64,000 nt of DNA. It comes from Weissella confusa (lineage in GTDB: Bacteria > Bacillota > Bacilli > Lactobacillales > Lactobacillaceae). Made by a program: the position numbers and the translations under genes. Below the pieces are notes generated by a model that was not told the origin of the DNA, did not search any database, and was given only the letters and a program-made list of their open reading frames with translations. Shown in pieces: positions 1 through 28,364 of this stretch. Within the stretch, counting starts at the first letter, position 1; each line of letters starts with the position of its first letter. The DNA lies in contig JACSZT010000009.1 in assembly GCA_014332815.1 (NCBI GenBank), forward strand, positions 118,156 through 182,155, read 5' to 3'.

Positions 1-1436
1 CAGATGGCTCCGTCATTTGCTGAATTGGATGTGTTCATGCATGAAGCGGTAGAACAAATGCCGTTACATTCGTTGTTACCAGAGTACGAACGATTTACAC
101 AACAGGTGTTTGATGGCATTAAAAAACATTTTAGCGTCGAAAACCACGAAATCCGAACGCGGCTGTTTGCGATGTTTTACAATGTGTTTTTGCATGCGAT
201 TAGCCGGGATGTCATGATACCAAAAATGACGATTATGTTGGAATTTGAACAGGCAAGTTTGGTGGCTAATGCAGAACGACATTATTTCCGGTTCTATAAT
301 GCCATCATGCAGATTATTAAAGAACAGTATTACTTGCAGTTCCGTGTTCCGATGCCTGCAGATACAGAAGATGATTTAAAGGTGAATCTGGATCGTGCGA
401 TGATTGCCGTGTATTTCTTATACAAGATTGACTACCGTGGTCACGACCGTATGGATGTGGCTTGTTTTATTCCAAGAGATAACGATTTTGATGTGTTAGT
501 GATGACCGAGGAATTAAACCCGCAAATGGCAACGGTCTATGAGAAAGTCAAACAAGCTGCCGAACGCTTTACGAACGTAACGTCTGCTCATATGGATCGT
601 GAAATTCGTTATGGTATGACGGCACTCATTAGCAATGGTTTTTTAGAAACAGTCCTACGCATTATGTATGAACGATTGATATTTGCGGCGACTGATACAA
701 TTGATGATATTGCAGATTATTTCACGCCAGATACGATGAACCGCGTGAATCAAATTATTGACTATTATGAATACACACAGAATAAGAAATTGCGGCCTCG
801 TCGGAAATATTTGCTTGCCATTACGCTAGCGGTTTGGGTCGCAGAGCGAGCGTATACGCTGTCATCACATGCGTTTCAAATGTTGGTTGCCACGTTAAAA
901 GATCGACCATACTCATTGAACGAACTCGCTAAAAAAACAGGGGTTAATTTGAACCACCTAAATGACGATAAACATGAATTAAATAAGCGATTGGGCGCAA
1001 GTGGGGTGCGCTTAAATTCAGCCAATCGCGTTGAAGGCAACAGTAGCACGAGTTTTAAGACGTTAGAGGAAATCGAGACACGCTTTGGTTGGTCACGGTA
1101 TATGGCTGAAACATTGGTTACTGAGCTGATTGCAGATCAACAAGCCAACCAAATTCCGCACCATATTCAGTTGTCATATGATGCGACGACGCGCATTGTT
1201 AATTGGTTGCCAGGCTATAGTGTGAGCCTGGTTCGGATTAGCCTAATCAAACCACTGAATAGTACGAAAGATCTGATGTCATGTCAGGTCTTTTTTTCGA
1301 TATTTCTTCGCTGAGAATTCCCGGGTGGATGCTACTATTTCAAGACAGTAATAACTTGAGATGGAGGCTGCGTGATGGAATGGTTGCTAGGAAAACGTGA
1401 ATATAAGAAGTTACAGCTCTTTCGATTCTTATATCA
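1..1436 (+). CDS. Mga/AtxA-type transcriptional regulator (3' end outside window)
   Basis: Start ATG 1375 after a GGAGG at 1363. The reading descends to position 1, where the window cuts the C-terminus, leaving about 433 codons. A short N-terminal lead (MEWLLGKREYKKLQLF) is followed by one winged helix-turn-helix at 1041-1238 (TLEEIETRFGWSRYMAETL) and a second at 843-1040 (SLNELAKKTGVNLNHL). The rest is helical, as in the PRD-like part of Mga family regulators. In true order it lies just after the small WxL gene and its terminator on the same strand, which suggests it controls the WxL surface locus. The family comes from the double-HTH layout; the target is inferred. Confidence 0.75.
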
Positions 1437-2228
1437 TCACGGTATCAAAGCAAAACAGCACGGTTATGGATGCCAAGGCTGGCACGATGCCTGGTAACTA
1501 CTTCGCCTCATTTGCTGGTTCAGCCGATGCATCTGCACACACTGATAACGGTGTGTCATTGGATGTGCCAGCAAACGCTGCGTTGGCAGATACTTACAAG
1601 ACGACTTTGACTTGGACGTTGACTAACGCGCCTGTGGGTAACTACATTCCTGCTTATACTGAAGTTTCAGACAAGCGTGCCGTTCAATCAGGTTGGCACT
1701 TGGCTGTTAAGCAAGACACTGACTTTACTGGTTCAAAGGGAGCAGTTTTGAAGGGTGCGGCATTGAAGCTGGTTGACCCAGCTGTTTCAGAATTGGCCGG
1801 TGGTGCAACATCAACGATTGCGCACCAAGCAAAACCAAAGGAAAACCCAGACAAGCCAGTAACGCCAGGAACTGACCCTGAAAACCCAGACACACCAGAC
1901 CAACCAGGTAACAACGGTAACGACTCAAAGGCTTTGTTGAAGTTGGTTTGGGCAACTGATTTTGACTTTGGTTCACACACAATCAGCTCAAAGCAAGAGT
2001 CATACGCCGCACAACAATTGAAGACTAAGAGCCATGATCCGCCAACAAAAACATGGTAGCGATTATTTTTGAGATTTTTTGATAAAGGAAAGAGGAGATT
2101 TATCATGAAGAAGACTGTATTTTTGGCAACGACGGCTATGTTGGGAACGTTGATGGCAGCATCAACTGGTTTTGCAGCAACTTACACGGACAACACGGCA
2201 ACGACTGATGCAAAGGTTGCGTTTGAGG
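1239..2228 (+). CDS. WxL-domain cell-surface protein, small
   Basis: Start ATG 2105 after AAAGAGGAG, stop 1246, 241 aa. A signal peptide (MKKTVFLATTAMLGTLMAAS) ends near GFA-ATYT. The mature part carries a Pro/Asp/Asn-rich spacer (NPDTPDQPGNNGND, block 1833-2030), then the C-terminal WxL domain with its first motif as GWHLAVKQDTDF (block 1635-1832) and the terminal motif as TWTLTNAP in block 1437-1634. WxL domains bind Gram-positive peptidoglycan non-covalently and form complexes with DUF916 proteins, and a DUF916 gene lies at the head of this cluster. A separate terminator follows. Confidence 0.85.
1266..1297 (+). terminator. Rho-independent terminator after the small WxL gene
   Basis: Stem AGATCTGA at 1269-1276 pairs with TCAGGTCT at 1284-1291 (one G-U), followed by seven Ts. 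It lies wholly inside one block, 20 bp after the small WxL stop (1246) and before the Mga-like start (1375). Confidence 0.8.
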
Positions 2229-4406
2229 TTTGCTAATCAATCAGATTCATCAACCGATGGCATCACGGATACGGCAATTAACGAAAATACACCTGGTATG
2301 GTCGGCCTAAAGCTTGATCGTTCTGCACAGCAAGCGAACGTGCAGGCCGGGAAAGACTATCATGGCACAGTTACTTGGACATTAGGGACGGTGCCAGCAT
2401 AATGAAAAAACTAATGACCGCGGGTTTACAAATACTATCAAGGTCAGGCAACGAAGTCAGCCAAACAGGTTCACGGTAGCTTGTATGTTGCGCACACCGA
2501 TGCAGCAATGGCTAATCGTAACTGGCGCCTAACCGCTAAACTCGATCAGAACTTTATGGTCGGCAAGCCAACGCTACAAATTGCCTATGGGCAATACGAA
2601 ATTAATAGTGATTATGAAACCGAACCAACCACAAATAAGCCGGCTGCTTGGCTAGATGTTAAGACGCCAGATGTTAAGGGTTATGAACCAGATATCAAGA
2701 AAGTTCACTGGGATAGTATTGATGCGAACCCATCTGAGACTTTGAGCCAAACGGTTACTTATAAGGGCGTATTCAAAGTGTATGCACCCGATACGATGGA
2801 CTTCGGCACAATTACAATTGGTTGCGGTACGGTTGCTGCAGATGATCAAAACAATGTGACTAATGAACCAATGGTTATTCACGTTGCACACGATACTAAG
2901 TCAGAAGACGTGACGTTTAGTCGAACGGTTCACTACGAAGGACCCGCATCACTCAAGGTACCGGATGACAATGTTCAAAAAACGACGGTCACCCGGACAA
3001 CCGATAACTACACTGGGAAGTCAAAAAATGTGATTACGGTCCGCTATGATGCTGTGTCAGGTAAGCTGCCAGTCAAAATCGTGGATGATACGGACAACGC
3101 TAACAAGATTCCGGATACCTCATTGCCAGTAGTTATTGGACAAACGTACAACTATTCGGATAAGGATTTGGCCAAGGTCATTCCGGCTAACACCCACATT
3201 GTGAGCCTAGAAAAGAATAACACGACCACAACAACAGTGCGTTTCGTAGACAAAGATGGCAATCCACTCGCTGATGATGCAAAAATCGACAGTATCATCG
3301 GAGCTAAGATTTCTATTTCAGGTAGTGCTGAAGAAAATTGGTTAGCGCCCGATATACCACATGCAACGTTGGCTGGAACAGCTGCTGACCGTACGATTAC
3401 AACGACGGAAGATGAGCCAATTTCAGAAGAATACAACGTGAATTATGATGCTGATACACGAAAGATTTCATACACGGATAATAAAGGTTTAACGGCAACT
3501 ACCGATATTCCTAAAGAAGTGCCACGTGTTTACATTGGAATTCTAACGTCGGTACAAGGAAATGGTTATTACGACAAAAGCTACATTGGACTTGACGACA
3601 TCAGCGGTACGTACGGAAAAGCTGGATATGCTAATCCTGATGTGGCATGGCAAACAACCTTCGGTACGCAAGCTTTTGGTGAGACACACTACACGTTCCT
3701 AGTGCCCGGTATTACTAGCATGGATCATAAAAATTTTGTACGTCAGACGATATATGGCAAGCAAACACCCGTGACAGAAAGACCATTTGATTCTACGCGT
3801 TGGAAAGCAAAGCAGGCAGACGGTGGTGCGTATGGTTTTTCATCGGCAGCATTTCAACGTCCTTTACGCACTGATCATAGCTTTTCTTTGAAGAGCCATG
3901 GTTACATCACGTCAGCAAATAACTACTTGTACACGAGTGACTTTCTTGGAATTGTTCTTTCAACTGCGAGTGCGGACAAATTGTCTAGTGCGCAATCTGG
4001 TGGTGTGAAAGTGACGATGCCATCCCAAATGGCATTTGCAGCTGAGACGTTGCAACCAGGATCACATATGCCTGCGAAGGATGTCTCGCCAGATCCTAAG
4101 ACTTTTGACGATGAGCACTCGGTTGTTCGAACCACACCAACGCAGGGGCCATCTTTTCCAACGCCAGCCTATCGGAAGGGTGTTGGCGACTGGCAAACGC
4201 TAAATGGTAGTGGCAAATCCTATTGTTGATTTTGCTAATCATCTTATTGGCCATCTTGATTATGTACCTAGTTCGTCGCGACCGTAAGCGAACTGCTGAG
4301 TTACGCCGATTAAAGTATACCGTTAGTGAGGTAACCACAAATGAAGGTAATCAAAACTAATAATTTCATAAAGCCACTGATTGTCCTGATTGGTGTTGCG
4401 GCAACG
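2229..4406 (+). CDS. WxL-domain cell-surface protein, large
   Basis: Start ATG 4341, 20 bp before the DUF916 stop (genes overlap), stop 2402, 673 aa. The N-terminus has a hydrophobic signal segment (FIKPLIVLIGVAAT) and a likely cleavage site at AFA-AET (about 4038). The middle contains L-type lectin-like sequence (block 3615-3812, FLVPGITSMDHKNF) and MucBP-like stretches (block 3219-3416, TVRFVDKDGNPLADD). The C-terminal blocks have WxL signatures: MDFGTITIG at about 2800, NWRLTAKLDQNF in block 2427-2624, and VTWTLGTVPA before the stop. Probably an adhesin-like subunit of a WxL/DUF916 surface complex. The lectin and MucBP calls are tentative. Confidence 0.8.
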
Positions 4407-5396
4407 CAAAAGTCGCCCCAAATAGTCACTTTGACTACACAATGATGATGGCTGATGGTCAGAAATTAGCGCCAGGCAAGTATGTTGCAGATATTGATTT
4501 AACTGCGAAGCAAGGACACTGGCATTTCAAGAAAGAATTCACCGTAACGGCCGAAAAGGCGCGAACGTTGGACGAACAAAATGTCACAATCAGTCACTGG
4601 GCTTTGCTGCATGAATCACCTGACATGGTGGCGCCAAACTTAAACATGCATCAAGTACGTGCGACGTCCGTTAATTATCACACAGCGATCCAAGCGCGTT
4701 TGCAAAATGACAAGCCTGCATTCATCACTGATATGAAATCACATGCAGTGATTTACACAGCTAAGGATCATAAGCGAGTTCTTGCTGAAAATAAGAAGAA
4801 TCAGATGATTTCGGTACCTGATACGGTTTGGATTCCAGCACACGGTACAACACAATTTACTGCGAAGTTGCGCGTTCAAAAGGAACAATTTAGTGGCATC
4901 GCAGTGGGTGGCATCTCATTTGTAACGGATGCTGATAAGGGACGCACACAAAGTACAGGCGTGCAAATCAACAACCGTTACGCTTACGACATGGGGCTCG
5001 TTACAAAAACTGGTTACTACGATTTAAACGTTGAACCAGGTCAAGAACAAAACCTTGAAATGACGTTGATGAATGATGGTGACAAGCCAATGCGTGTTCA
5101 CGTTAGCGCTAATCCAGCTTCCACCAATGATAATGGCGTCATCGAATACGGTAAGAACAATATCGCGGTGGACAAATCACTAACAGCTAATGTTGGCATT
5201 TAAGGTAGTGCTTCCGAACAATGGTGGCTTTGCTAAACTTCTAAGTGTAAGGAAGAGGAGGAAAGAGACATGATTAGAAAACTACAAATTGCATTAGCGA
5301 CAGCATTGACATTCGGCATTAGTCAAGTAGCAACGACGGCATATGCTGATAATAGTGCACTCGGCGTTGATCCAATTTTCCCAACTACACAAATTG
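4209..5396 (+). CDS. DUF916/DUF3324 (WxL-interacting) membrane-anchored protein
   Basis: Start ATG 5270 after GGAAGAGGAGG, stop 4360, 356 aa. Layout: signal peptide to about TAYA-DNS; DUF916 region (GYYDLNVEPGQEQNLEMTL, block 5001-5198); DUF3324 region (APNLNMHQVRATSVNYHTAI, block 4605-4802); a C-terminal transmembrane helix (LLLILLIILLAILIMYLV) and a basic tail. These proteins bind WxL partners and peptidoglycan at the cell surface. First gene of the WxL cluster. The block joint at 4209 creates an in-frame TAG just before the transmembrane helix. I attribute it to the unreliable joint base, not to a real stop. Confidence 0.83.
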
Positions 5397-6782
5397 ACGT
5401 TGAAACGTTGAAGAACGAAAAGTAATTCATTTCTTAATAGCGATTAAACAACCGCGAATCTCATTTATTTGGGATTCGCGGTTGTTTTTTTATTACAGTC
5501 AGTCCTGAAAATAAGAAAGTCGTTAAACGAGTTTTCCTAACATTTTTCTTTTATACAAAAAAATAATCTTCGATACACGTCAGATACATACTTTTTATCG
5601 TCTTTACGGCTGGTATCGGTGAAAACGCCGATGACTTGCGTTCAGAAATCATCAAGCGCTTGAACTTCATGGGTATCAAGATGAACGAAGAGCAAAACAA
5701 GCAACGTGACGACGAGATGATTATTTCAACGGACGATTCTTCAGTTAAGGTTTTGAAGGTCGCAACCGACGAAGAAATCATGATTGCTCGAGGTTTGACT
5801 AATGATGAAATGCTGAACATCTTGAATAAGAAGTCAGGTTTGTTGGGTGTATCAACTTTGTCAGCTGATATGCGTGATTTGAAGGCTGTTCGTGATACAA
5901 ACGAGCACGCTGAATTGGCTATCCAAATGTTCGTTGACCGTGTTGTTCGCTACATTGGTCAATACTACATGGAGCTTGAAGGTCTTGACGCCGAAATCTT
6001 GGGTAAGCCATTGGAAGACTTGAAGATTGTGACATTGCACTTGGGTGCCGGTGCTTCAATTACGGCTATCAAGGATGGTAAGTCATTGGATACGTCAATG
6101 GGCTTCACGCCACTGGCTGGTGTTATGATGGCGACGCGTTCAGGTGATGTTGATCCTTCATTGGTTTACTACATCCAAGAGCGTGAAGGCAACGCAATGG
6201 GAATCCGTGTGTTCCAAAAGTTGTTGCCAAACGCCACGTCAGTAGCTGTATTTGACACTGCATTCCACCAAACGATGCCTCGTAAGAACTACTTGTACGC
6301 ATTGCCATACGAGTACTACACGAAGTATGGTGCACGTAAGTACGGTGCTCACGGAACATCACACCGTTACGTTGCAGCTCGCACTGGCAACCACGAGGCT
6401 GCCATTAACTTGCTATTGGAACAATTAAAGGAACACGAAGTCATTGCTGACTTGAACGAAATCACAGGTGTTGGACACCGTGTCGTTGCCGGTGGTGAGT
6501 GGTTCAACCACTCAGTTATCGTTGACGACGAAGTGTTGAACAAGATTGATCGTTTGGCTGCTTATGCACCATTGCACAACCCAGTTTTGGAAAAGAGGAG
6601 ACAAGTACACATGGCTAAGACTATGGCGATTAATGCCGGTTCATCATCATTGAAGTTTCAATTGATTGAGATGCCAGCAGAAAAGGTAATTGCAAAGGGA
6701 CAAGTTGAACGAATCGGTTTGAGCGATTCAATTTTCACGTTGAAGTTTAACGGTGAGAAGTTTGAGTTGATTCAAGACATCG
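5397..6782 (+). CDS. ackA: Acetate kinase
   Basis: Converts acetyl phosphate and ADP to acetate and ATP in the heterofermentative acetate branch. Start ATG 6611, with AGAGGAG upstream, stop 5425, 396 aa, normal for the family. Motifs in reordered sequence: [12 protein letters not shown] at the N-terminus, [10 protein letters not shown] (block 6387-6584), DTAFHQTMP and HGTSHRYVA (block 6189-6386), HLGAGASI (block 5991-6188), FTAGIGEN (block 5595-5792). In the raw window these motifs run backwards, the easiest place to see the block reversal. Its promoter region lies after the methyltransferase stop (6895-6980, TTGACA at 6924), so it is probably transcribed separately from comG. Confidence 0.95.
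5446..5491 (+). terminator. Rho-independent terminator after ackA
   Basis: Stem AAACAACCGCGAATC (5446-5460) pairs with GATTCGCGGTTGTTT (5473-5487), then a T run. It follows the ackA stop at 5425 inside the same block. Confidence 0.92.
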
Positions 6783-7970
6783 CACGCCAGTTATGCTGGC
6801 AAAAACACCAGAATTGACTAACGTTGCAGAAAACAAGGATTTCGTGACAGAAATGACAGCATGGATGACGGCGAACCACATGCTACATGCGTAGTCGTAC
6901 GACTGAAACACGTCCGAAATAGTTGACAAGATATTCATAAGAAATTGTGATATACTAATCTGCAGATATTGAACAATTCCCCCAGGTGGATTGGCAGCCA
7001 TCATTGTGCCAGCAAATCTATTTGAGACGGAACAAGCACAATCATTGTTGAAGTACTTGCAATCAGAAAACGTGTACTTCCAAGCGTTGTTACAATTCCC
7101 AGATAAGTTGTTTGCAAACAAAGCAGCTGCAAAGGCAATCTTAGTCTTGCAACGCGTGGGTGGGGATGCTATTCAAGCTTTGCTCGGCTTTGACTGGCAA
7201 TTAACTTTAGCTGACGCTGTTGCTAGTGAGCTTCCAACTGATCAAGATATTGTTGTGGCGGACTTGCCGGTCGGTTATTACCCAGCTGAAGTACCAAGTC
7301 ACTTTGTGACAACGGCCGAAGATGGTCTGACCTACGTGCACCATCTGTTGATTGAACAAGCTGTCAACGCGTTGCGAATTGGTATGTGGGTCGGCTTTTT
7401 AGCTGAGCAATTCACAGCGCAGAATGCAACGGCGAACCTACTAGATTTGACGGTCGGTACGGGTAATTTGTTGGCAACGGTGCAACAAGTACTTGCCCAA
7501 CAAGGTAATACGTTGACCATCAACGGTGTCGAAAATGACGATACGATGCTAACGGTTGCCAGTGGCATGGCAGCAGAAGTGATGTTGAACCAAGAAGATG
7601 AAGAATGGGCAACGCTATCTGAAGAGCAACGTACGGCGATTGTTGCGATGATTGACGATGCGGCATTTGATGGGATGACGGCTGAATTGAAGCGCCAAGT
7701 GTTGCAATTGCTTTTGGTTGCAACGATGCGTGAAGATGGTCTGCAAGCTAATTATCAAGTGACACCAGATGCAGATACCACGATATCGTCCTGTAAAATC
7801 CTAGAATTGTTGAGAAACAGCTGAAACCTGCTACACTATTATTTAGTATAAAAAAGAGGTGAGCGCATGTTTGAGACAATCGAAAACGCAGTAAAGCATT
7901 TACAGGCAGCACAAAAGGAAATTGCTGACGCTTTGGATATGGCAGCAATTGAAGCTTTGGTTGTGATGAT
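6783..7970 (+). CDS. YtxK-like class I SAM-dependent methyltransferase (com-associated)
   Basis: Start ATG 7867 after AAGAGGTGAGCG, stop 6894, 335 aa. Motif I is [13 protein letters not shown] in block 7377-7574, and the NPPY-like motif appears as ADLPVGYYP in block 7179-7376, as is typical of the YtxK/N6-adenine methylase-like group. That group commonly sits between comG and ackA in lactic acid bacteria, as here. A promoter-like TTGAGA-16-TACACT lies just upstream, after the comGG stop. The substrate is unknown. I do not claim DNA methylation activity. Confidence 0.85.
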
Positions 7971-8366
7971 AGGTAGCAGGACAAAGTCGCCAACAACAAG
8001 CTAGGCATTTAGTGATAGCAAATTGGACGAAGCGGCAAGAAGCGTTGCGTTTTTTGATGGCCAACCCGGAAGCACCTGTTATGTCACAAAACACAACCAA
8101 CTATCCAGCGGTCATTGAAAGAGATGAGCTCAAAGAAGTGGTACTTGTTGCCGAAAATCATCGCGTTGCGGGAACATGAGATATCTCAATCAGGTTAGCC
8201 AGGTGACTTATGTACAATTGTCCAAGCAACGGGTGCAAGCCACCATTCAATTCGAGGAAGGGGTAAAAGTGACACAGGAGATAACTTTTTATGAAAAATC
8301 GGCAGGGTAGTTTGTTGGCGCAGACGTTAATGCTGATGGTACTTTGTTTGAGCGGGTTCACTTTTT
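7773..8366 (+). CDS. comGG: Competence pseudopilin-like protein ComGG
   Basis: Start ATG 8291, overlapping the comGF end; stop 7804; 101 aa. A short basic N-terminus (MKNRQGS) and hydrophobic segment (LLAQTLMLMVLCLSGFTF) resemble a degenerate prepilin. The remainder is Gln/Arg-rich. The joint at 7971 yields an in-frame TAG directly after the hydrophobic segment, read as a joint artefact. Assignment relies on position as the last comG gene and on size, because ComGG sequences diverge strongly. Confidence 0.7.
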
Positions 8367-8762
8367 ACAACATTATCAAAGCAATCGTAATCAGCAGCGT
8401 GAGGCACAAGTTGCCCGATCGATTATGTCATTGGAAGCGCCGGAAACAGGATTGACGCTCAAAACGTGCTTTAAACGCCAATTGATTTTGTACAGCAAAA
8501 TAACCGATAAAAAATATTATTTGGATGTCAGACATAAGGCATTTGGTTTGTATACACGTCAAGGTAATCGTGACAACAATGCAATACTTTAACCGCATAC
8601 AGTTTGCTGAAGAAGCACGCATGAAAGAGGCACGTCGACAATATTATGAGGAACAAAAACGATGGCTAAACGACGAGGCTTCACCCTAGCTGAAACGCTT
8701 GTGGCGTTAATGGTCTTTAGTATGGCGTTAAGTCTATTGGGGGTGGCTGCAACCAACCTAAA
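8169..8762 (+). CDS. comGF: Competence pseudopilin ComGF
   Basis: Start ATG 8662, inside the comGE end; stop 8310; 146 aa. The N-terminus has a type IV prepilin signal, RRGFTLAETLVALMVF, with cleavage expected after the Gly. ComGF is a minor pseudopilin of the DNA-uptake pilus. Order and overlaps match the canonical comGA-GG operon. Confidence 0.82.
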
Positions 8763-8960
8763 AACCGGTGGTCTAAGAGTGATTCGTTGCCAAGTTTTCA
8801 CGATGGCGCCAATTAGTTTTGCGCTTTATAACAAAGAAACGATGCGAAGACGAAATGTTGTCTTTCAGCTGGGAGGTGGCACTTTTCATGTTGATCCGTA
8901 AAGGCGCATTATTATCAGAAGCGCTCGTATCACTATTACTCGCAACAATGACAACTTGGT
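8565..8960 (+). CDS. comGE: Competence pseudopilin-like protein ComGE
   Basis: Start ATG 8888, overlapping the comGD stop; stop 8689; 65 aa, short even for ComGE. MLIRKGALLSEALVSLLLA is a prepilin-like leader (K-G/A-L-L-S-E). The rest is a charged helix ending WLNDEASP. Called by leader and operon position between comGD and comGF. Confidence 0.72.
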
Positions 8961-9356
8961 CATGGGCGTGTTAATCAGCAGTTTTACCCTTATCCCACGG
9001 TCAGAAAAACAGACTTGGTCGAAATTCGAGCGTGAATTTAACGAAGCCTATATGATCGCACGCCAAAAACAGGTTGGTCGGAACGAAGAGTTCTACATTG
9101 ATGTTCGCGAAGACCATGTCAATGTTGACGGACAGGTTATCCAGGTCCCAGCAAATTGACACAGGTAGATTTGTACCGCAACGAAAATGGCAGTGCGCCT
9201 GCTAGTTTGAAGGACTTGGCTGATAAGTCGTATTTATCAGAAGGACAATTGGCTCAAATTGATAAGGCAGCGATTACGTTGAAGGGAGATCAAGTTGTTG
9301 CGGGTAAGAAGTAGGCCGGCATTTACGTTAGTTGAAAGTGTGGTTGTGTTAGGCGT
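8763..9356 (+). CDS. comGD: Competence pseudopilin ComGD
   Basis: Start TTG 9298 preceded by GGGAGAT, stop 8901, 131 aa. The leader RSRPAFTLVESVVVLGV is a prepilin signal with cleavage before FTLVE. TTG is the only start that places the leader at the N-terminus. It overlaps the comGC stop (9314). The joint base at 8763 makes an in-frame TGA (read as Trp or Cys in the intact gene), one of several joint-only stops. Confidence 0.82.
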
Positions 9357-9554
9357 TTTGATGCCGATGTATCAAAATATGGGGGATTTAATGACATGGT
9401 AAAGCAAAACAAGCGCAAGGGATTCACATTGATTGAAGTTGTCACGACTGTTTTTATTATTGGACTATTGGTATTGCTGGTATTACCAAACGTTAACCAC
9501 GTTCGGGCATTTGCGGAACGTAAGCAACAAACAGCCTTGGTACAAACCGTGCAA
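9159..9554 (+). CDS. comGC: Competence major pseudopilin ComGC
   Basis: Start ATG 9396 overlapping the comGB stop (9402), stop 9314, 104 aa. The prepilin leader KRKGFTLIEVVTTVFIIGLL has the canonical G-FTLIE site cut by the ComC peptidase. The C-terminus contains the SLKDLADKSYLSEGQL region typical of ComGC. It is the main shaft subunit of the transformation pilus. Confidence 0.9.
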
Positions 9555-10544
9555 CGTACCGTTATTACCGCGTGAGAGTGAGTTGCTGTTTTCAAAAGGC
9601 AAACAGCAACAAGAAATTGGTCAAGAGTTCCAGCTGCTAGCTGAGCGGAAGTTTGACTTATTAGAACGACAGATTGGTCGTTATTTATTGATTATTCAAC
9701 CATTATGCTTTGGCGTAATCGGGTTAGTTGTCGTCGGATTATATCTATTGATCGTTGGGCCGGTCATCCGATTAAGTTTGGATTATCAAATTTCACTACA
9801 GTTGGGATTGTTGTTAACGAGCGGCGTCAGTTTTTCAGTCATCGTCAAACGCTTTGCAGGTTTAGAAGAAGGTGGGGTACTAAAAGAAGTTAGTCAATTA
9901 GCAGAAAAATCACTAACAGCTGGCGAAAGTATTGCCGAGTTTGTCACGAATGTTATATTTGCGGTGTTCGTGCAGTTCCTTTTACCTGAGTTCACGAACA
10001 TGGGGATGGCATTACCGACTCTTGTGGGGTTGCCAGTGGTTTTATCAATAGTCGCCGTTACGCTAATAGGCATTGCTGTTACTGGGATAGTCTGGTGGCG
10101 ACGGCATTCTTGGTTGCAAAAATTGGTGGTTCTCAGACGCTTACCGTTAGAAGGACGGCATTTTTATCAACTGGTTACACCGTATGTTCGGTCAGAAATC
10201 AGACGTGAGTTAGCCTTTGCAGTAGTCCATGGCAATTTAATGGAAATTCTAGCTGAAATCGGCAGTCGTGAACGACGCCGAATGCGACAAATTCAAAAAT
10301 TGCGCCAGTTACTGATGTATCCGATTGTTCTGTTTGGTTTGTTAGCTCGGGTGATGCACTGGCAGAAAGGATGGCTGATTGGCATGCAGAGTAAACGATG
10401 GTCAAAACCGGCGCAAGTTGATTTTTTTGAGACATTAGCCCAATTGATTAGCGTTGGGTATGACTTAGAAAAAGCGCTAGTGTCGCTCCAATCATTGCTG
10501 CCGAAATTGCGACCGGACTTGCAAGTGATTGTTGCTGGGTTGCG
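9357..10544 (+). CDS. comGB: Competence type II secretion/pilus inner-membrane protein ComGB
   Basis: Start ATG 10384, overlapping the comGA stop (10394), stop 9402, 332 aa. GspF-like: an N-terminal QVDFFETLAQLISVGYDLEKAL repeat, a second copy in block 9753-9950 (SLQLGLLLTSGVSFSVI), and three hydrophobic segments, the last being IQPLCFGVIGLVVVGLYLL. It is the membrane platform for the pilus ATPase ComGA. The raw-window ORF here fuses the comGC N-terminus to ComGB pieces because of the block shuffle. Confidence 0.88.
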
Positions 10545-11534
10545 TCGCAAATTGTGGTTGAAGCAGCTTTGAGTGGGCACTTAATTATCAGTACAATTCA
10601 TGCGATGTCGCATATGGGTATCTGGCATCGGTTATGTGACTTTGGTATTCCAGCTGGAACGTTGCGTCAAGTGATGGGAGGTATGGTCTATCAGAAGTTA
10701 GTTATACAGGATGGCAACACGGCAGCTGACTTAGCAGTTCTACTGCATTACTTGGCCCATCGATATTTAGCAGAGAAAATGGTTCTGACTATTGAAGATC
10801 CGGTCGAAGTGGTACAACCAAATTTTCTGCAATTACAGGTCAATAAGGCGGCACAAATGGATTATCCGGATTTGTTAAAGCTTGCATTACGTCATCATCC
10901 AGACGTGATGATTATTGGCGAAATTCGAGATGCACAAACGAAACTGTATTTACGAATTTCCAGCGTGGGAGATTTTTTGAATCGGGAATCAATTGTGGTG
11001 AGATTGATTTTTGCTGTTGATGATCAGCATATCCAGTTGACGTCACAAAGCGATGTTGGAGCTATCGGTGAGACGATGATGAATGGTGCTGGGTTGATTT
11101 TGTTGGCTGGACAAATGGGCTCAGGCAAAACAACGACCGGTGATTTGTACGTGATGCCAGGAGAAGCGGGATACCGTGTTTTTTGTTACACAGCAACCGG
11201 TATTCAACCATTAGCTGATCTGACATTAGCGAATGGTGAAGCGTTGATTCGTCACATTAAGTTTGAGGCGCAAATGGATATCAGTGAAACACGGCGACCG
11301 CAACTGGGACGCTGGTGTTATTTGCTTGATAAGGAGTATAAACAATATTTAACGCGTGATGCCTTGTGTATCACGCGTTTTTTGTTGTCATAAATCCTAT
11401 GAAATAAAACAAGTCGAAAAATAATTGGAAATTATCGTGGTTTTGGCCTCTTTCTTTTCGAAGGAGGTGAATGAGATATGAGCGTTCAAAAACAATTTGC
11501 GTCGTTAGTACAAACCGCTGCCCAGGTAAGGGCA
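10347..11534 (+). CDS. comGA: Competence pilus assembly ATPase ComGA
   Basis: Start ATG 11478 after a strong AAGGAGGTGA, stop 10394, 298 aa. GspE/PilB family: Walker A GQMGSGKTTT in block 10941-11138, Asp box LTIEDPVE, Walker B DVMIIGEIRD in block 10743-10940, and the His box STIHAMSH in block 10545-10742. First gene of the comG operon; a terminator ends the preceding purine permease about 100 bp upstream. It powers pilus assembly for DNA uptake. I see no clear ComK or SigH site. Confidence 0.92.
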
Positions 11535-13118
11535 TTATTGAAATTGCGATTCCAGCATTCTTCACATCAGCTTTCATGGCCTTCTCTTACTCAATCTCAT
11601 ACGGTATCGCTGCCGGATTTATTTTCTATGTTTTGATCAAGAGTGTGAAGCGCAAGTTCAACCAAATCAGCCCAATTTTGTGGGTTGTGACCATTCTGTT
11701 CTTGCTTAACTTCATTTCGTTGGCAATTAATTTAACGTTTATCGAAGCCTCAGCAGGAATCAAGGCTGGTGGTCGTACCGGTTTGACATCAGTTGTCATT
11801 TCTATTGGATTCTTGCTAGCAATTATTGCCGCACCATTGGTTAACGTGATTCCATCTGCCGCCACGGCACCAATTTTGGTGGTTGTTGGTATTATGATGA
11901 TGAATGAGTTTAAGTTGATTACATGGGATGGCTTCTCAATGGGATTGTCAGGGTTGTTTGACGCCATTGGAACGTTTATCGGGACTGGTATGACGACTGG
12001 TATCTTCTCAGAAGCTGACCAAAAGGAGTTCTACGAAGGTAAGGGCTTCAAGTCAAAGATGGATCGTGGTTTGGTTGCCGACACGTTCGCAACGATGTTT
12101 GCTGGTATCTTCGGAACATCAAACACGAATGCGTTCTTGCTTTCTGTTTTGATTACGACCGTGATTGGTATTCCAATGGGTGTGACCAACACGCACATCG
12201 ATGCCATGGCATCATTCTCATCAACGTTCCACGACTTTGGCTCAATCTTTGGGCAAGCCCTTGGACCTGATGGTTTGTGGTCAATGTTTACATCACCAAA
12301 GCACATTTTGATTGTTGTTTTGACGGCCTTCTTGGTTGATCCACAAAACATCATGACGTTGAATGGTAAGCCATTTACTGAAGGTGGTGGTGCCAAGGTT
12401 ATTGAGAGCATCACAGCAAACGGTGGGACGACACCATCAATCTCAACTTTTGCGCAACCAGCAGTTTTGTTGGGATTGATTGGCTTAATCATTTTGGTTT
12501 TGTTGGTCGTTGCTAATGTACCAGTTGTTTTCGGACTAGGGTACACGTGGAAGCAAGCTTTGGGAATGGTTTTCTTGGTTGGTTTGGTTGATGTGATTAT
12601 CACATTGACGAAGGTCCGATCAATGATTGTTAAGGCCATCCCCGACCAATTGAAGCACGCCATTGCGGCTGGTATCGGTTTGTTTATCGCTTATATTGGT
12701 TTGAAGAACGCTGGTTTCTTGAACACAACATTCGTTGCGATGGCATACATCATTTTCTTGAATCCTTCAGTATTGTCGATGACAGGAATGCCAAGCCAGG
12801 GAGTTTTCTTGGCAACAATTTTGACGGCTGTTGTGGGAACTCTTATCACAGGACTTTTTGCTAATTTGCCATATGCCCTGGCACCATCAATTGGTATGCA
12901 AGCCATGTTTACGTACACGAAAACGTGTTTAGGCATATCTATATGCTGGACACCGTTAACGACGCCGAGAGTAATTCTTTTGGCGTCGTTTTCTTTTCCT
13001 GTATCATTTGGCGAACCGTAATGATACAGGATTTTTTTAGGAGAGATAAGCATGTTAGAACGCTTTTTTAAGTTGTCAGAGAACAACACGACGGTTCGAA
13101 CAGAAGTGATTGCTGGTA
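11337..13118 (+). CDS. pbuG: AzgA-type purine (hypoxanthine/guanine) permease, NCS2 family
   Basis: Start ATG 13052 after AGGAGAGATAAG, stop 11341, 485 aa. Multi-pass membrane protein. The N-terminus (RFFKLSENNTTVRTEVIAG) is followed by MAYIIFLNPS and the family motif GTSNT|IEASAGIKAGGRTGLT, joined across blocks 11931-12128 and 11733-11930. The match is to the AzgA/PbuG branch of purine uptake carriers. A structured leader with two terminators precedes it, and its own terminator follows. The exact purine is not determined; the symbol is by family resemblance. Confidence 0.83.
11351..11384 (+). terminator. Terminator after the purine permease
   Basis: Stem AACGCGTGAT (11351-11360) pairs with ATCACGCGTT (11370-11379), followed by Ts. 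It lies between the permease stop (11341) and comGA. Confidence 0.9.
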
Positions 13119-13316
13119 TGGTTGATGAACTTGAAGAAAACGATGACGTACAAGCTGTCTTCACGACTGCTGAGTAATCATCTTATGAAAAACCGACCAA
13201 ATTTGGTCGGTTTTTTTGTAGGCGCAAAAGTTGACGATGTGAACAAAAAGCGATAAAGTAGTAAACAATTATTAATAACTTGAGTCGTTAACGTGTTTCG
13301 CCACAGACTCGGAACA
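12921..13316 (+). promoter_or_regulatory. Riboswitch-like leader of the purine permease, class not recognised
   Basis: Reordering 13218-13316 in front of 12921-13051 creates a perfect 10-bp stem, GTCGTTAACG (13284-13293) with CGTTAACGAC (12954-12963), closing a multi-helix region that includes the hairpin GCATATCTATATGC (12933-12946). The 3' strand of that stem overlaps the 5' arm of a terminator, AACGACGCC (12958-12966) with GGCGTCGTT (12982-12990). The two folds exclude each other, so stabilising the stem should prevent termination. A second terminator hairpin, TCCTGTATCAT (12997-13007) with ATGATACAGGA (13021-13031) and seven Ts, follows. I do not find the conserved purine-riboswitch loop sequences. 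Confidence 0.62.
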
Positions 13317-14108
13317 AAGACATGTTGGAGGCTGGTGCCGAAGACATGAAGACTTACGATGACCAATTCGAAATCTACACGGACCCTAAGTCATTCCCAG
13401 AAGTACGTGATGCTTTGGAAGCAAAGGGTTACACTTTGGTCAACGACGAAGTTACGATGGTTGCACAAAACCCAATGGCAGTGCCTGAGGATAAGCAAGC
13501 ATCATTGGCTAGCTTACCAGCCGGTGTGGCTGTTTTGGTTCAAGCCTTGACTGATAACATCAACCGTACGGCTGCTTCAGTTCGTTCAACGTTTAAGCAC
13601 TTCGGTGGTGAATTGGGAACGACTGGATCAGTTTCATTCCAATTCGACCGTAAGGGTTACATTGAAATCGAGCGTACTGAAGACAACGATATCGATGAAG
13701 ATCAATTGTTTGCCTTCCAAAAGCTTGCCCGCGATTTGTACACGGCAGCTAAGGCTGGCGGTGTAGATCCAGACTCAAACGCTTCATTGCGTTTGGTTAT
13801 CGACAAGGCTAAGGCAGCTAACATGCCTAAGGATAACATCCAACGTGCCTTGGATAAGGCTTCTGGTGCCGGTGGCGCTAACTACCAAGAGTTGACGTAC
13901 GAAGGTTACGAACTTCATGCCTTAATAAGGATGTAACGGTAGCGCGTGACTAACATTGTGCTATAATCTACTAGTCAAGCACTAGTGAATTGTGCTAAAA
14001 TTAAGCGATAAATTTTCGAATGAAAAGGGGTTTCTGAAATGTCAGGACACAGTAAGTGGCATAACATTCAAGGACGTAAGAACGCCCAAGACGCAAAGCG
14101 TGGTAAGA
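13119..14108 (+). CDS. yebC: YebC/PmpR-family protein (translation factor/regulator)
   Basis: Start ATG 14039 (AAAAGGGGTTTCTGAA upstream), stop 13177, 240 aa, normal size. The N-terminal signature [20 protein letters not shown] is followed by [17 protein letters not shown] and the C-terminal [19 protein letters not shown]. Members act as translation factors or DNA-binding regulators. A TATAAT at 13968 supports its own promoter after recD2. The joint at 13317 generates a TAA between QL and DMLEAGAED, interpreted as joint noise. Confidence 0.9.
13188..13217 (+). terminator. Terminator after yebC
   Basis: Stem AACCGACCAAA (13191-13201) pairs with TTTGGTCGGTT (13202-13212), then a T run, 14 bp after the yebC stop. 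Confidence 0.9.
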
Positions 14109-16682
14109 CCGGCGGTCAACGCAATTAATCAAAAGCCAGTGGCGGTTGTACCAGTGGACGAGGAAAACACAACCATTGACGATACGCCAGTAGTTGATGA
14201 AATTGTCCAGGCTGTTGCGGAAGATGATGACGATTTGCTCACAATTGCTAAAATTATGGATGAATCAATTGACCCAAATGTGGGGATGGCAGGCATGACG
14301 CCATACCGCCGTATGCTACAACGTAACCTGCTGTATACCGGGTTAACACGTGCCAGTGAATCATTGGTCCTTATCGGTGATGTCAGTGCCTATCAACGTG
14401 CGGCTGAAACAGAGGGTGTTAATCGACACACGACGTTGCAGGAACGCCTTCAACAGGCACAGGATGGACAACTGCCAGATGTGCCGGATGATGATAAATC
14501 ATTGTACATCACGGCGATTATGTTGGCGAAGGATAAAAGCAACGAGGATAATACAGATAACATTACAGTGGCTTTTGATACCGGCGAGGTTGAGTATACG
14601 CGCCAGAACTGGAATCAGTTGACGCTAGCGTATGCGACGACGATTCACAAGGCACAGGGTGCTGAGTATAAGTTGGTCATCATGCCACTGGTTAATGCAT
14701 TTATAGCGCCGATGTATCGTACGCCAGCCGGTGTTCACAATCTAAATGCCGTGGCTCAAGAAATCTTTAATCCAATGACGGCCAAGAAACGTGAAATTCA
14801 CATGAAACTTGGTGAGCTGGAGTTCAACTTCCGCGTTGGGGATAAGGTTATGCAGACGGCCAATGATCCAGAACATAACGTGTTTAATGGCGATATTGGC
14901 ATTCACCGTCAGGGTAAGGGATCAACAATCATTGAACTAGCTAGCTCAGTGAAGAGCGGTGTCTTGCCTGCGAACTTTACCGAGCGCCAGTCTGACCGCT
15001 CATTTTTCCCGGCACAGACAAATCAAGTGCCACGTATGGTTGAGCAGATTGCGACGAGTTGGAAGGAACGCGGTAATTCAGTTGCTGATATGCAAATCTT
15101 GAGTGGTCGTCTGCTGGTCATTGATGAAATGTCGATGGTTGATACGCAACTATTCGATTTGTTGTTACGTGCGATTCCAAATGGGATGCAAGTTATTTTG
15201 GTCGGCGATAAGGATCAATTACCATCTGTTGGCCCAGGCCGTGTATTCTACGATTTGTTGGCCAGTGGATTGTTGAATTATCGTGAGTTGGAGACGATGG
15301 TGGCGACGCTCAAGAAGCTACTACAAGACGAAGGTATGAAGTGGGATGAAATTAGTGAGAGCATTCGTTTAGCAGCGCCAACTGGTCGTGCAGCGAAGCG
15401 ACTTTCTGAATCAACTGGCATGCCGGCTTCCACGATTCACCGTCTGTTGGGTATTACCGGGCGTGAAAATACAGACGATATTGATATTGAGGAACGTATG
15501 GTGCGTCTAAGTAAAACGAAGAACAGTGAATACAAACGAGCTGATGTTGTAAAACAATTGGCTGAAGTCGAGGAAGAAAATCCGTTTCCATATGATGATG
15601 TGCAGCGCGATGCGATGATTGCTGCTTTGATGAGTAATCTATTTATCCTCACTGGTGGACCGGGTACAGGAAAGACGACCATTATCAACGGTGCTGGTGA
15701 CACGTTTATGCAAGTGGAAGCGTTGCTACAAACCACGCAACAAATTTTAGAGCGTTCTCAAAATGCACGCATTGATCCAGCGTTGATTAAGCGCGCGTTA
15801 TTGACATTAACTTCTGACGGTATCGTCATTGCCGACGGACAGAACTTGTACATTAAGGCGTTGTTTGAAGCTGAACGTGAAATTGCGCAAACCACCGTGA
15901 TTTACCAAAAGTATCAGCAGCAAACTTTACAGATTTTAAAAACAAACCCTTACCAAATGGTTATTGATATTGAGGGCGTTTCATTTGCACGTATCGATCG
16001 ACTAGCAGCTCAGCAGGGAATTGATGCGTTGGACGCGCGACGTATCCAAGCGGGGGTTATTTCAGCGATTAACCAGGCGACATTCGAGCGAAAAGCGACG
16101 GCAACGAAGATTGTAGACTACCTGGGGATTGAAGCGATTGATAAGATTTTAGAATCACCAGACGTTTTGATTGAAACGGGTATTTCAACAAAATTGCAAG
16201 AAGTCATCGTGAAGCAGTTGCAACAATCGGACGGTATGGAACGCGCCATCATTGCCCTTAATGATTATGGGTTCGGTTCAGCATTTCATTATGATGATAC
16301 TGAGTTAACGGTGACTGGTAGTTTTGGTGATATTCAAATTGGTGCCAGTTATGAGTTTAAGGGACGTCTAACAACGCACGCCCGCTACGGGGTCCAGTTT
16401 GCAGCGCAAAACTATCAGCGTCAGGCGGCCAGTACGACGTCTGGTTTGGTGGCGTATTTGTCAGGTGACCAATTTCCAGGGGTTCAGCACAACGATTGGA
16501 TGAAATCGTACAACTACTATCAGGGAGTCGCGTAGATGAGTCAGAGTCAAACTAGTTTGTTCGATGGCCCAGCGGCATCGGATGAGACACCGACAGTTAC
16601 TGGCCAAGTGAAGAATATTCTGTTTGCTGCCCAAGATTCTTTTTATAAGGTCATGATTATCGAAGTGGCGGATCAAAATTTC
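13911..16682 (+). CDS. recD2: RecD2-type ATP-dependent DNA helicase
   Basis: Start ATG 16536, 20 bp before the TPR gene ends; stop 13925; 845 aa. The N-terminal blocks carry the RecD2-specific region (GLVAYLSG, block 16287-16484). The helicase core has Walker [11 protein letters not shown] at about 15652, Walker [12 protein letters not shown] at about 15114, [12 protein letters not shown] at about 15205, and motif VI-like [11 protein letters not shown] at about 14330. The C-terminus ends ...YRR NFMP. A 5'-3' superfamily 1B helicase involved in DNA repair, not part of RecBCD. In the raw window the order is inverted, so the C-terminal motif VI precedes Walker A. Confidence 0.92.
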
Positions 16683-17474
16683 TAGTGCTACTCGGTAACA
16701 TTTGGCTTGGTTTGCAAAACATGGATAAGGCAACAACTGCGTTTAATGACGCTATTCATGTGGATCCAATGAATTTTGACGCAAATTTTGGTCGAGGTAT
16801 TATTGCAATCGTTGACGGTGACCGCGAGAATCAATGGTCAGCAACGGCTGAAATGATTGATATGGAACGATACCGTGCTCTCGCAGCAGGGAACGTTTAT
16901 TATGTTGCTGGGGATTATGCGCGCGCAAATGAGTTTTTCGCCAAAATCACTGATTTGGAGATTTTGCATGATGCAACGGTTATGCAAGCACAAGCATGGT
17001 ATGCACAAAATCAATTCCAAAAGGCATTGGTGTTTGCGTTGACGGCAGTTGAGCAACAACCAGAAGATGTTGCAGCCCTGCAACCAGAAAATGCAGCACA
17101 AGCAGATATCGCTCGCTTGGTAAGTGAGATTAACGCTAACCCAGACAACTGGCAAGCCTATGCAGACTTGGTGGCTGTTTTGGTTGCCACGGAAAATCTT
17201 GTGGAAGCTGAAGAATTAGCTTTGAAGAGCTTGGGCTTGTTCCAAGCGAACGATGAAGCGTTGCAAAATCTACTCTGCGGGAATGGGTGGCCTAATTGGT
17301 ATTCCATTGGCGGATTTGCGTGCACGAGGTGGCTTGGGTAACACAAGTACGTCTATCCTAGAAACGCATGATGGGCACGCATTTACGGAAATTACACGAA
17401 ATGATACAAGTTATTTGGGTGTCGCAAGTGATGCCTCAAATACAATTTAAAGAGAAGAAGGATTTTTAAGATGA
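16485..17474 (+). CDS. Tetratricopeptide-repeat protein
   Basis: Start ATG 17471 after AGAAGGA; only four bases lie in its first block. Stop 16555, 222 aa. Helical TPR pattern: INANPDNWQAYADLVAVLVA, YYVAGDYARANEFFAKI, NQFQKALVFALTAVEQQPED and GNIWLGLQNMDKATTAFNDA. It sits between a histidine phosphatase and recD2, overlapping recD2. This TPR gene before recD2 is common in Lactobacillales. A scaffold role is inferred from the repeats only. Confidence 0.82.
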
Positions 17475-18068
17475 TAAGTTCAAGAAGGCTGGTATGACAT
17501 GTACGATGCTTCTCGTAACCACCCAGAGAAGTTCGATGCGAGTCAGGTTGAAGGATCTGAGTCATTCGAAAGTGTTCAAAAGCGTTTCCGTGAGGCAGTT
17601 GAAGAGGCTGTTGCCACGTACGGTGGTGAAGATGTGAATTTGGTCTTCTTCAGCCACGGCGCTGCGTTGACGCAATCATACGATCAAATCAAGATGCTTG
17701 GTAACCACTTGAAGGATATTGAATTCGCACACGCCTTTTCAAGTCCAATCAAGCGAGCTCGCATCACGGCCGAAGAAACGTTGGCAATGCTTAACAAGCG
17801 CCCTGAATTGACGTTTATGGACGGTTTGAAGGAGTTTTCTTTCGGCGTTTGGGAAGGCATGAGCTTTGGTCGCGTTGCGTCGAGGCATAGAAATGTGGAC
17901 TCTCTTCGGCCGTCAGGACGGACACAAACCACCAAACCTAAATACATAACCAATCAAAGAGAAGGAGACCAACGCATGACGAAGCTATACTTCATCCGCC
18001 ACGGTAAAACAGAATGGAACGCAGAAGGCCGTTTTCAAGGAGCGGGTGGTGATTCACCGCTGTTGCCT
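17277..18068 (+). CDS. Histidine phosphatase family protein (phosphoglycerate mutase-like)
   Basis: Start ATG 17976 after AAGGAGACC, stop 17450, 220 aa. Catalytic RHG motif as LYFIRHGKTEWN at the N-terminus, second-arm SSPIKRARITAEE (block 17673-17870), and the C-terminal catalytic His in VFFSHGAALT (block 17475-17672). Branch-2 phosphatases of this type dephosphorylate diverse small molecules, and the substrate here is unknown. A structured 5' leader and its own promoter precede it. The joint at 17475 makes an in-frame TAA, one of the joint artefacts. Confidence 0.87.
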
Positions 18069-21236
<3,168 letters not shown>

Positions 21237-22028
21237 AACTGATGACTGGGCTGCATTCCAACAACCTGCCGCATTCCAACAACCACAATCAGCTGCACCA
21301 GTTTTGCCAGATTCATCTGCATCACAAGCTAGTTCAGAGGTAGAAACGGTTGTTATCTTCCCTGAATCAAACGAAAACGAAGAAAACTTCTTGAATAAGG
21401 ACTAATTTTTCGTTATCATGTAATCATGGTTTCTCGAAGCAACGTTGCAACAAGCACAAGCTGAAGCACAAAAGATTGTTATGGAAGCCAACGCTAAGGC
21501 AAATTCATTGTTGACTGAATCTCAATCAAAGAACGAAGCATTGGTTGCTGAGCACGATGCTTTGAACAAGGAAATGGGCGCATTCAAGGCTAAGATTGAA
21601 GGCATGTTGAACGCACAATTGGACTTGGTTAAGGAAGTAACGGCCTTCTTGGACCAAATCGTAACTGATTACGATGGTTTGCTACAAGAAAACCAAACTT
21701 TGAAGACGCAATTGGCTGAAGCTGATGCAAACGCTAAGCAAGTTGAAGAGATGAAGCAATCTGTTAACTCATCAATCTTGATTGCCCAAGAAGCAGCTGA
21801 CCGTTTGAAGAAGCAAACTGAAGCTGAAGCAGGTTAATGATTTGATTTCAGTGCGTCGATTCGGTCGCATGAAATTGCTAGCTGAAAATGGTATAACAAA
21901 AAAAGATAAATGGCGCGTCACATTGGCCGTCATTAAGAAATAGATTGGAGAACGATCATGGCATTGACCCCACAAGAAATTCACGCTAAGGAATTTAACA
22001 CAAAGAGCAACAAGTGGTACGACAAGGC
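21237..22028 (+). CDS. divIVA: Cell division protein DivIVA
   Basis: Start ATG 21958 after TTGGAGAACG, stop 21405, 211 aa. N-terminal ALTPQEIHAKEFNTK membrane-binding region, then VTAFLDQIVTDYDGLLQENQ and long coiled coils. The C-terminus is Gln/Pro/Ser-rich and acidic. It binds negatively curved membrane at poles and septum and recruits division and cell-wall proteins. Sits between ylmH and ileS, as is canonical. Confidence 0.93.
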
Positions 22029-22820
22029 GTGAACCAATGATGCTAGCTGATATCGTGACCCCCCAAGAGGAGTGGGATGATATCAATACAACTGTCTCGT
22101 CCCTTCGACTAGATACTATAGTGGCTAATGGGTATAATGTATCTAGAACGCATGCTAAAGAATTAGTTGAGCGTGGTATGGTCCGGGTGAACTGGACTGA
22201 GATTGACCGACCAGATTTTATGCTGGATATCAACTACCCAACCAAGTTTGCTGAACTACATCACAGTACGGTACTTGGTACACTAATTAATAATGGGTTA
22301 TCTCGAGATAGTTTCGGGGACATTATTAGTAGCGAAGAGGGTGATTGGCAAATTGTTGCAACGGAACAGATGGCGCGATTTATCACGTCATCATTGGATC
22401 ACGTCGGTAAAACAAAGGTTCGTTCATCGGATGAGTATCGTCCAGTACTGACGAATTTTTTGAACCCGCGGCAGAGATATATTTTGGAGACGTTGGTCAA
22501 CCAACATGATGAGTTAAAGATTGCTCATTCCGGTGGCTACACTGACGCCGAAAGTGCACGGTCCTTGATTGCACCGGATTATTACGATGTACAACAGGAC
22601 GATTTTGAAATTGCTGCAATCCGTCGTGTGATGCCTCGCACGGGAATTATCGATTTTACGCCGTTGATTGGTTTGCTACTGTTGCAAGCTGCTCAAGTCG
22701 GCCTACGCGCAATTGCACAAGCATTCTAGAGAAATAAATTTATGGCAGATAATGTATCACAACATTTCCGCCCGAGCGAAGCTGCATTTATTGATGTAGC
22801 GCAAGGCTTAATTCGTCAGG
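21831..22820 (+). CDS. ylmH: YlmH, S4-domain RNA-binding protein
   Basis: Start ATG 22742, stop 21943, 261 aa. Features: FLNPRQRYILETLVNQ and GGYTDAESARSLIAP in block 22425-22622, and an S4 domain LRLDTIVANGYNVSRTHAKE in block 22029-22226. Conserved neighbour of sepF/yggT/divIVA. YlmH proteins bind RNA and have been linked to ribosome-associated functions. Confidence 0.9.
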
Positions 22821-23018
22821 CCTCAAAATTTGGGACAACAATTTAATTAATAGGTGACCAAATGTTAACACTCATTTTATCGTTATTGATGTTGGTCTTG
22901 CGTGCCATGGAGTTCGTAATCTTGATTTGGGTGCTGATGTCATGGTTGCCCGGGGCACAACAATCAGCCTTGGGACAATTGCTGGGTCGTATTGCTGGAA
23001 TCGTGGTTGATCCAATTC
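22623..23018 (+). CDS. ylmG: YggT/YlmG family membrane protein
   Basis: Start ATG 22862, 11 nt after the sepF stop; stop 22729; 87 aa. Two hydrophobic helices ([20 protein letters not shown] and LIGLLLLQAAQVGLRAIA) flank a polar loop with VVDPI.RRVMPRTGIIDFTPL, which matches the YggT consensus. Membrane factor of the division cluster; molecular function not established. Confidence 0.9.
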
Positions 23019-23612
23019 AATGCCCAAACAATCGCAACGCAATTGTTGGCTGGCGAAGCGGTTATCGTAAATCTAGGTTCAATTGATGAAAACACGGGAA
23101 AGCGTGTGCTTGACTATCTAGGTGGTACAGCATTTGCGGTTGACGGTATCATTGAACGTGTCGGTGAGCGTATCTTCCTTGCAACGCCTCACAATTTTGA
23201 GATTTCAGGAACGATTCATTACTATGAAGAAGAAGAGGCACCGGAAGAACAATACGTGCAAGAACCCGCACAACAAGCAACGTCAAAGGCTAAGCCTGCT
23301 AATGCGAATGCAACGCGTCCAACGGCAACACGCCGTCCTAACGTTTTGCCAATGGATGGATCACGTCCAGGCGAGACATCAAAGATTGCGTTGTACGAGC
23401 CACGTACTTACGCTACCAGCACAACAAGCAACGCCAGCACAACAAGCTGCACCAGTTGAGCCTGTTCAACCTCTTTCATCAGAAAACACGGCTGCTGACG
23501 AAGAAATTGAGCGTCCAGCTTACTTTAACTGGATGAAGCGCGGCGAAAAGTAAGGAGACAACCGATGGCTTTTGAGACTTTTAGAAACTTCTTCATGGGA
23601 TCAGATAGTGAT
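22821..23612 (+). CDS. sepF: Cell division protein SepF
   Basis: Start ATG 23565, 11 nt after the ftsZ stop with GGAG upstream; stop 22850; 157 aa. N-terminal amphipathic helix ([14 protein letters not shown]), variable acidic linker ([12 protein letters not shown]), then the SepF core: [31 protein letters not shown] and [15 protein letters not shown]. SepF anchors FtsZ polymers to the membrane and shapes Z-ring bundles. Confidence 0.93.
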
Positions 23613-27374: not shown

Positions 27375-28364
27375 ATGTTGATTTGGTTGTTGGTCGTGCC
27401 GGAGCGACAAGTTTGGCCGAACAAACGGCATTGGGTAAGCCAATGGTTTTGATTCCAAGTCCATATGTGACGAACGATCACCAAACGAAAAATGCACGTA
27501 GCTTGGTTGAAGCTGGAGCAGCGGAAATGATTACTGAAGAATCACTTTCAGGCACAACGTTGTTCGGCACAAAACAAGGGGCCTTGAAGTTGAACAAGGC
27601 CATGGTTGCCGGCATGTCAAAGTTTGCTAACCGCCCATACCAAGTCATCTTCGTTACGGGTGGCAAGCGTTATGATGACGTGCAAGCAGATTTGCGTGCT
27701 GGTGGGGTCGTACCAGCTGAGAACGTTGCTGTGGTACCTTACATCGGCAACATGCCACAATTGATGCCAGGGACAAATAAGTTCTTGGCACGTCATGTGA
27801 CAAAGGTCGGGGTTGCTTTTCCAGCAGCCCTACCAGCCTTCAAGGAGGGCTTGGCAACGGTTGTTGGGAACCCACGTGCCCAAGAAGTTGTTAATGGCGA
27901 AGGTTCATTTGACTGGGACACATTGCACTTGTCAGCAGATAAGCCAACGGTTTTGATTTTCGGTGGCTATCGCTCATTGTCACTTGATAACGTGAAGACG
28001 GTCTATCTTTTCTTGACGGCTACTCGCAAGGCCAAGAAGATGTTGGAAGACTTTAAGCCGGATGTTGTCGTTGGAACCGGTGGATACGTTTCTGGTCCAG
28101 TTCTATATGCTGCACAACAACTTAAGATTCCAACGGTTATTCACGAACAAAATTCTGTTGTCGGCGCGGAGATAGATATGCGTATTGTTGTTTCAGGTGG
28201 TGGAACTGGGGGACACATTTACCCAGCGCTAGCTACGGTTAAGCAATTGAAGCAATTGGAACCTGAGACCGAGGTACTGTACATCGGTGGTGAACGTGGC
28301 TTGGAAAAGTCAATCGTGCCAGAAGCCGGGTTCGACTTTAAGGCTTTGGCAGTGCAAGGATTTA
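27177..28364 (+). CDS. murG: UDP-GlcNAc:lipid I N-acetylglucosaminyltransferase MurG
   Basis: Makes lipid II at the inner membrane face. Start ATG 28178, 2 nt after the murD stop; stop 27295; 365 aa. Motifs: [16 protein letters not shown] at the N-terminus, [16 protein letters not shown] and IHEQNSVV in block 27969-28166, and the UDP-binding [19 protein letters not shown] in block 27375-27572. Confidence 0.95.

Follow-up and report, generated by a model that had tools for sequence, protein, structure and literature searches.

The inside-out acetate kinase gene found in this stretch of DNA reflects an artefact in the assembly record and represents no new biology. There is every indication that large parts of the assembly were reversed one 198-letter piece at a time rather than as entire contigs. 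The window, that is, the whole stretch of 64,000 bases that was analysed, covers positions 118,156-182,155 of contig C24 in a genome of 2.29 Mb (24 contigs, stated completeness 66.51%). A chunk-wise reverse-complement artefact accounts for this record with a probability that we regard as very high, and the evidence comprises the periodicity of matches to relatives, the effect of undoing the operation, the order of the acetate kinase pieces and the joins between damaged and intact components.

Periodic reversal in the window

When 4 kb of the window were compared with 28 genomes of the genus, the sequence broke into pieces of about 198 bases. Among the matches listed for these 4 kb, the pieces from genome G023 lay on the minus strand while the coordinates of both sequences ascended jointly. 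The window as a whole gave 319 matches to contig C22 of G023, all of which (319/319, 0 plus) were minus-strand matches with an offset that hardly varied, and therefore every piece was turned in place. The matches started at residue 1 of a 198-base grid in 212 of 319 cases and ended at residue 197 in 203 of 319, whereby most of the remaining edges were only a few bases off these residues. An even spread would yield fewer than two matches per grid residue, so that the period of 198 is far beyond chance.

The operation can be stated exactly: on a grid that starts at contig base 1, each unit has its bases 198k+1 to 198k+197 replaced, in place, by their reverse complement, and base 198k+198 is kept. 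A 197-base core was counted as located if at least 185 of its 197 positions matched G023, which was the case for 295 of the 322 blocks, the other 27 lying below this threshold. In 289 of the 295 located blocks the 198th base agreed with the base at that place in the relative, and in 2 with its complement; altogether, 6 of the 295 were without a retained 198th base. The spacing in G023 was exactly 198 bases for each of the 279 successive pairs of located blocks. Identity between G023 and the window amounted to about 98.6%. The comparison with named genomes, in which L015 (Weissella confusa DSM 20196) alone of at least 80 loci was used, gave a mean identity of 86.25% to the window blocks over 75 matches. 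These neighbours suggest the genus Weissella, with W. cibaria as a conceivable species.

Applying the inverse operation restored collinearity. Before undoing, the window showed 316 matches to G023, all on the minus strand and the longest of 228 bases; after undoing of the 197+1 pattern two matches of 59,640 and 3,385 bases were obtained, both on the plus strand. Identity to G023 reached 98.56% in this way, compared to 98.19% when all 198 bases were turned back. When the raw window was divided into 62 fragments, each 1,020 bases long, none aligned to G023 over 70% of its length, whereas 61 of 62 did so after undoing, and the proportion of window 21-mers present in the G023 stretch rose from 70.6 to 78.5%. 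The first-pass annotation had described the disorder as a frame-preserving shuffle of 198-base blocks. Its period and its inverted order were correct; the operation itself is an in-place flip of 197 bases next to one untouched base and not a reordering of blocks of 198. Repeats were considered as the origin of the disorder and dismissed, as a search returned only four direct families of two copies each (27-34 nt) and, at the settings used, no inverted pair.

The acetate kinase frame and other false frames

The gene in the window is an ordinary ackA, and its reversed order is a by-product of the turning. The Pfam profile PF00871 matched the 393-codon frame (Table 1) in six stretches with a whole-protein E-value of 3.3e-111, and a collinear match over the length of the frame was not obtained. 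As the window coordinates rise from 5594 to 6778, the pieces correspond to profile positions 325-392, 255-325, 190-259, 125-189, 57-123, and 2-56; the profile search of the genome thus gave the exact reverse of the normal order. A BLASTP comparison of the raw frame with the protein of G023 returned the identical six pieces in reversed order, in agreement with the annotated run from the C-terminal to the N-terminal end. The raw frame lacks the last nine AckA residues and the stop codon, which were read from the sequence at approximately 5398-5425. The frame remains open since 198 is divisible by three, as had been proposed.

The alignment that the first-pass annotation had suggested as a check gave the expected outcome: the raw frame aligned with AckA in six reversed pieces only, and the reordered frame was collinear over 396 residues. 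Reordering of blocks as originally described resulted in 99.0-99.2% identity to the G023 AckA, depending on the block edge, compared to 100% for the exact inverse. The product of the undone ackA equals G023 AckA over 396/396 residues and is collinear with one-piece AckA. The start originally assigned to the region, 5397, was off by one, since the seven turned cores run from 5398-5594 to 6586-6782. The undone gene resembles the known acetate kinases (PF00871, TIGR00016) in encoding a protein identical to that of G023, and the raw frame differs from them in its six reversed pieces and in the missing C-terminal end. A naturally permuted AckA, which had been named as the finding that would contradict this reading, was not encountered: each of the 20 relatives searched (20/20) contained at least one one-piece AckA (profile 1-3 to 392), and the window is cut on one grid throughout. 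Another ackA, which is intact, is located in contig C13 of the same genome. Just past the ackA stop, window positions 5440-5490 read as a GC-rich hairpin with a run of T behind it, which looks like an intrinsic terminator and lies as a whole within one chunk.

Table 1. Positions in the window of the false acetate kinase frame, of the seven turned cores across ackA and of the window itself.
Feature	Position	Strand	Content	Basis
False open frame	5636..6817	+	393 codons, AckA pieces in reversed order	PF00871, BLASTP, passes TIGR00016 cut-off
Turned core 1	5398..5594	+	AckA end (last nine residues, stop ~5423-5425) and downstream sequence; 5595 untouched	Grid arithmetic, sequence
Turned core 2	5596..5792	+	AckA profile ~325-392; 5793 untouched	
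Turned core 3	5794..5990	+	AckA profile ~255-325; 5991 untouched	
Turned core 4	5992..6188	+	AckA profile ~190-259; 6189 untouched	
Turned core 5	6190..6386	+	AckA profile ~125-189; 6387 untouched	
Turned core 6	6388..6584	+	AckA profile ~57-123; 6585 untouched	
Turned core 7	6586..6782	+	AckA start (ATG at 6611) and profile ~2-56; 6783 untouched	
Whole window	1..64000	.	Part of a component with 197 of each 198 bases turned in place, 1 kept	G023 matches, grid, undoing

Divisibility by three keeps frames open across the entire window: 23 frames of at least 300 amino acids were found in the raw sequence (all plus), compared to 27 in the undone sequence (all minus) and 27 in the G023 homologue (all minus). 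Eleven raw frames, the AckA frame and the ten longest, were scanned against NCBIfam. Two of the 11 passed a cut-off, namely the AckA frame, which despite being scrambled scored 368.1 bits with TIGR00016 (cut-off 293.4), and a RecD2 frame with 511.2 bits (cut-off 500). Against the five listed equivalog models of acetate/propionate kinases the raw AckA frame stayed below every cut-off. Among the ten longest frames, one passed, six matched families under the cut-off, and three had no match at an E-value of 1e-10. The expectation of many false but plausible proteins throughout the window was consequently right with regard to open frames and less so with regard to names.

Extent of the damage and joins between components

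The damage comprises about 229 of the 260 kb of contig C24 as well as much of at least three further contigs, and it adjoins intact sequence. In C24, matches on the grid run from position 2,773 to 228,756 within the sampled stretches, which lie on both sides of 40,001-99,999 and share one phase. Positions 1-2,772 and 228,757-234,309 had no match in the stretches of relatives that were compared, and 234,310-260,138 is intact, matching contig C22 of G023 from 25,840 down to 1 within the limits of the compared stretches. The sequence after 228,757 looks like surface-protein repeats rich in P, N, and D and is a likely site of an assembly break. Near the end of the damaged component, at 226,926-228,524, there is a tRNA array for which Rfam gave 15 tRNA matches, four of them low (29.7-34.4 bits), and ARAGORN 10 genes; some of these tRNAs are probably broken by the 198-base boundaries.

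Samples of contigs C18, C14, and C12 share the 198-base grid from base 1 with C24. In C14, damage was seen in three places, namely the contig start, 60-80 kb and 90.6-130.5 kb, always in phase 1. The start of C18 is damaged in phase 1 and its 292-312 kb region (292,454-312,453) in phase 83; the grid in C18 persists across indels relative to G023. In C12, the damaged stretch reaches from at least 2,576 to about 62.9 kb, and the sequence from 63,121 onward is intact. The period is thus fixed, and its phase is set by the start of the contig or component, with phase 1 in C24, C18, C14, and C12 and phase 83 at the end of C18. Other contigs appeared intact: the C23 sample was collinear with G023 over 9.2 kb at 99%, and 3-kb samples of C13 and C21 were collinear with G024 at 88 and 90%, respectively. 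In the 3-kb sample of C22, 0.65 kb aligned well. Nine single ambiguous letters lie close to the start of C22 (149-354), and six small contigs (C2-C7) consist of N throughout, presumably because they were masked or withheld.

The ABC transporter domain PF00005, with 92 matches, served as a further indicator. It occurred whole in C8, C12, C13, and C19-C24 and in pieces in C10, C12, C14, C15, C18, C19, and C24. Partial matches were also present in the seemingly intact C21, C22, C23, and C12 at 144-147 kb, where the two-piece cases (C22, C12) were in normal order; near-full matches in the damaged C14, C12 (33 kb), and C18 (309 kb) were stretched, weak or contained a stop. Taken together, the damage amounts to about 735 kb or a third of the genome, made up of 229 kb of C24, 131 kb of C14, 312 kb of C18, the middle of which was counted on PF00005 pieces alone, and 63 kb of C12. 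Further damage may lie in C15, C10, and parts of C19. The stated completeness of 66.51% fits damage to about one third of the genome.

At three joins, in C24, C12, and C18, the order of the components is correct once the damaged component is turned whole. In C24, the matches of the damaged part begin at 26.1 kb of contig C22 of G023, with a weaker one at 25.93 kb; the intact part stops at 25.84 kb. The damaged component of C12 extends to position 2,164,274 of G024 and the intact one continues from 2,164,324. For C18, position 350,098 of G024 is the last one reached by the second damaged component, and the matches of the first component begin at 350,106. The second phase in C18 marks a second component and suggests that the faulty step acted on the components prior to their joining.

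Proposed cause, alternatives and consequences

From the three collinear joins and the second phase in C18 we infer that contigs were flipped in scaffolding by means of a faulty 198-character step. Contigs would have been placed in scaffolds, and those that needed turning would have passed through a reverse-complement step which processed the sequence 198 characters at a time, reverse-complementing characters 1 to 197, keeping the final one and leaving the order of the chunks unchanged. A common reference orientation as the reason for flipping was considered but is not supported, as some contigs match G024 in one orientation and some in the other; evidence for a flip before joining comes only from the local joins in C24, C18, and C12. 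The step itself probably relied on a line buffer of fixed length applied to a one-line sequence: a routine with an input limit of 198 characters would have taken the last character for a newline and reversed the rest. Such a routine would be predicted to turn the last, partial chunk in full. The last chunk of the damaged C24 component comprises 66 bases (228,691-228,756, a stretch that we take to be the end of a 23S rRNA gene), and at this single component end 66/66 bases match the relative when turned. The base after it differs from the relative (T instead of A), which fits the prediction by one base at one end. On the opposing side, the last untouched base of C14 differs from the relative (A instead of T), in a poorly matching stretch.

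A simpler processing error would be a FASTA file wrapped at 198 characters whose lines were reversed and complemented one by one in full. Turning in place on a 198-base grid from contig base 1 would follow from such an error, but 289 of the 295 located blocks have an untouched 198th base and turning back all 198 bases yields the lower of the two identities. The untouched base rules out the simple form of this explanation, which we hold to be very improbable; a variant sparing the last character of each line is not affected by this argument. It is equally improbable that the scramble entered the analysed copy after deposition and that the public record is intact. The all-N contigs C2-C7 imply that this copy is not untouched, but the completeness of 66.51% fits a genome of which about one third was already unreadable at the time of assessment (the value stated for G023, which is about 99% alike, is 100%), and alteration of a finished record would not be expected to end at component joins or to produce the second phase in C18.

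A true biological rearrangement, either a natural permutation of AckA or a programmed scrambling of genes as in ciliates, might be considered in view of the open frame and its strong AckA match. Ciliates such as Oxytricha have scrambled germline genes, in which pieces are permuted or inverted as they are here; in contrast, the present pattern occurs in a bacterium on a fixed grid from contig base 1 that is indifferent to genes. The breaks follow this count and not the genes, one base per 198 did not move, all relatives searched have one-piece AckA, and intact contigs are present within the same assembly. The grid effectively refutes a biological origin, the probability of which is negligible. 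The chunk-wise artefact shares with the orientation and reverse-complement errors that occur in deposited sequences that a sequence was mishandled on being turned. It differs from these in that chunks of 198 characters were turned with one character spared, so that frames and k-mers largely survive. A literature search returned only papers on other subjects.

With regard to data quality, about a third of the assembly is unusable in its present form. Genome comparison by alignment fails on the damaged parts, as seen with the 62 raw fragments, and some false frames (2 of the 11 scanned) pass curated naming cut-offs. We put forward only as a tentative and rather unlikely suggestion that the identical routine damaged other public genomes, and that records of this kind get through simple checks and may be classified as species separate from intact, near-identical genomes. 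They would pass because k-mers largely survive, unlike long alignments and gene order, and public records would then contain false, sometimes named, proteins. The genome of the window and G023 are about 99% identical where intact, yet they are separate entries, as different species within one genus, in a collection that is described as containing one genome per species. The scramble possibly caused this separation, which is not certain since some two thirds of the genome are apparently intact. The signature of the operation, 197 bases turned and one kept on a grid from the component start, is easily screened for.
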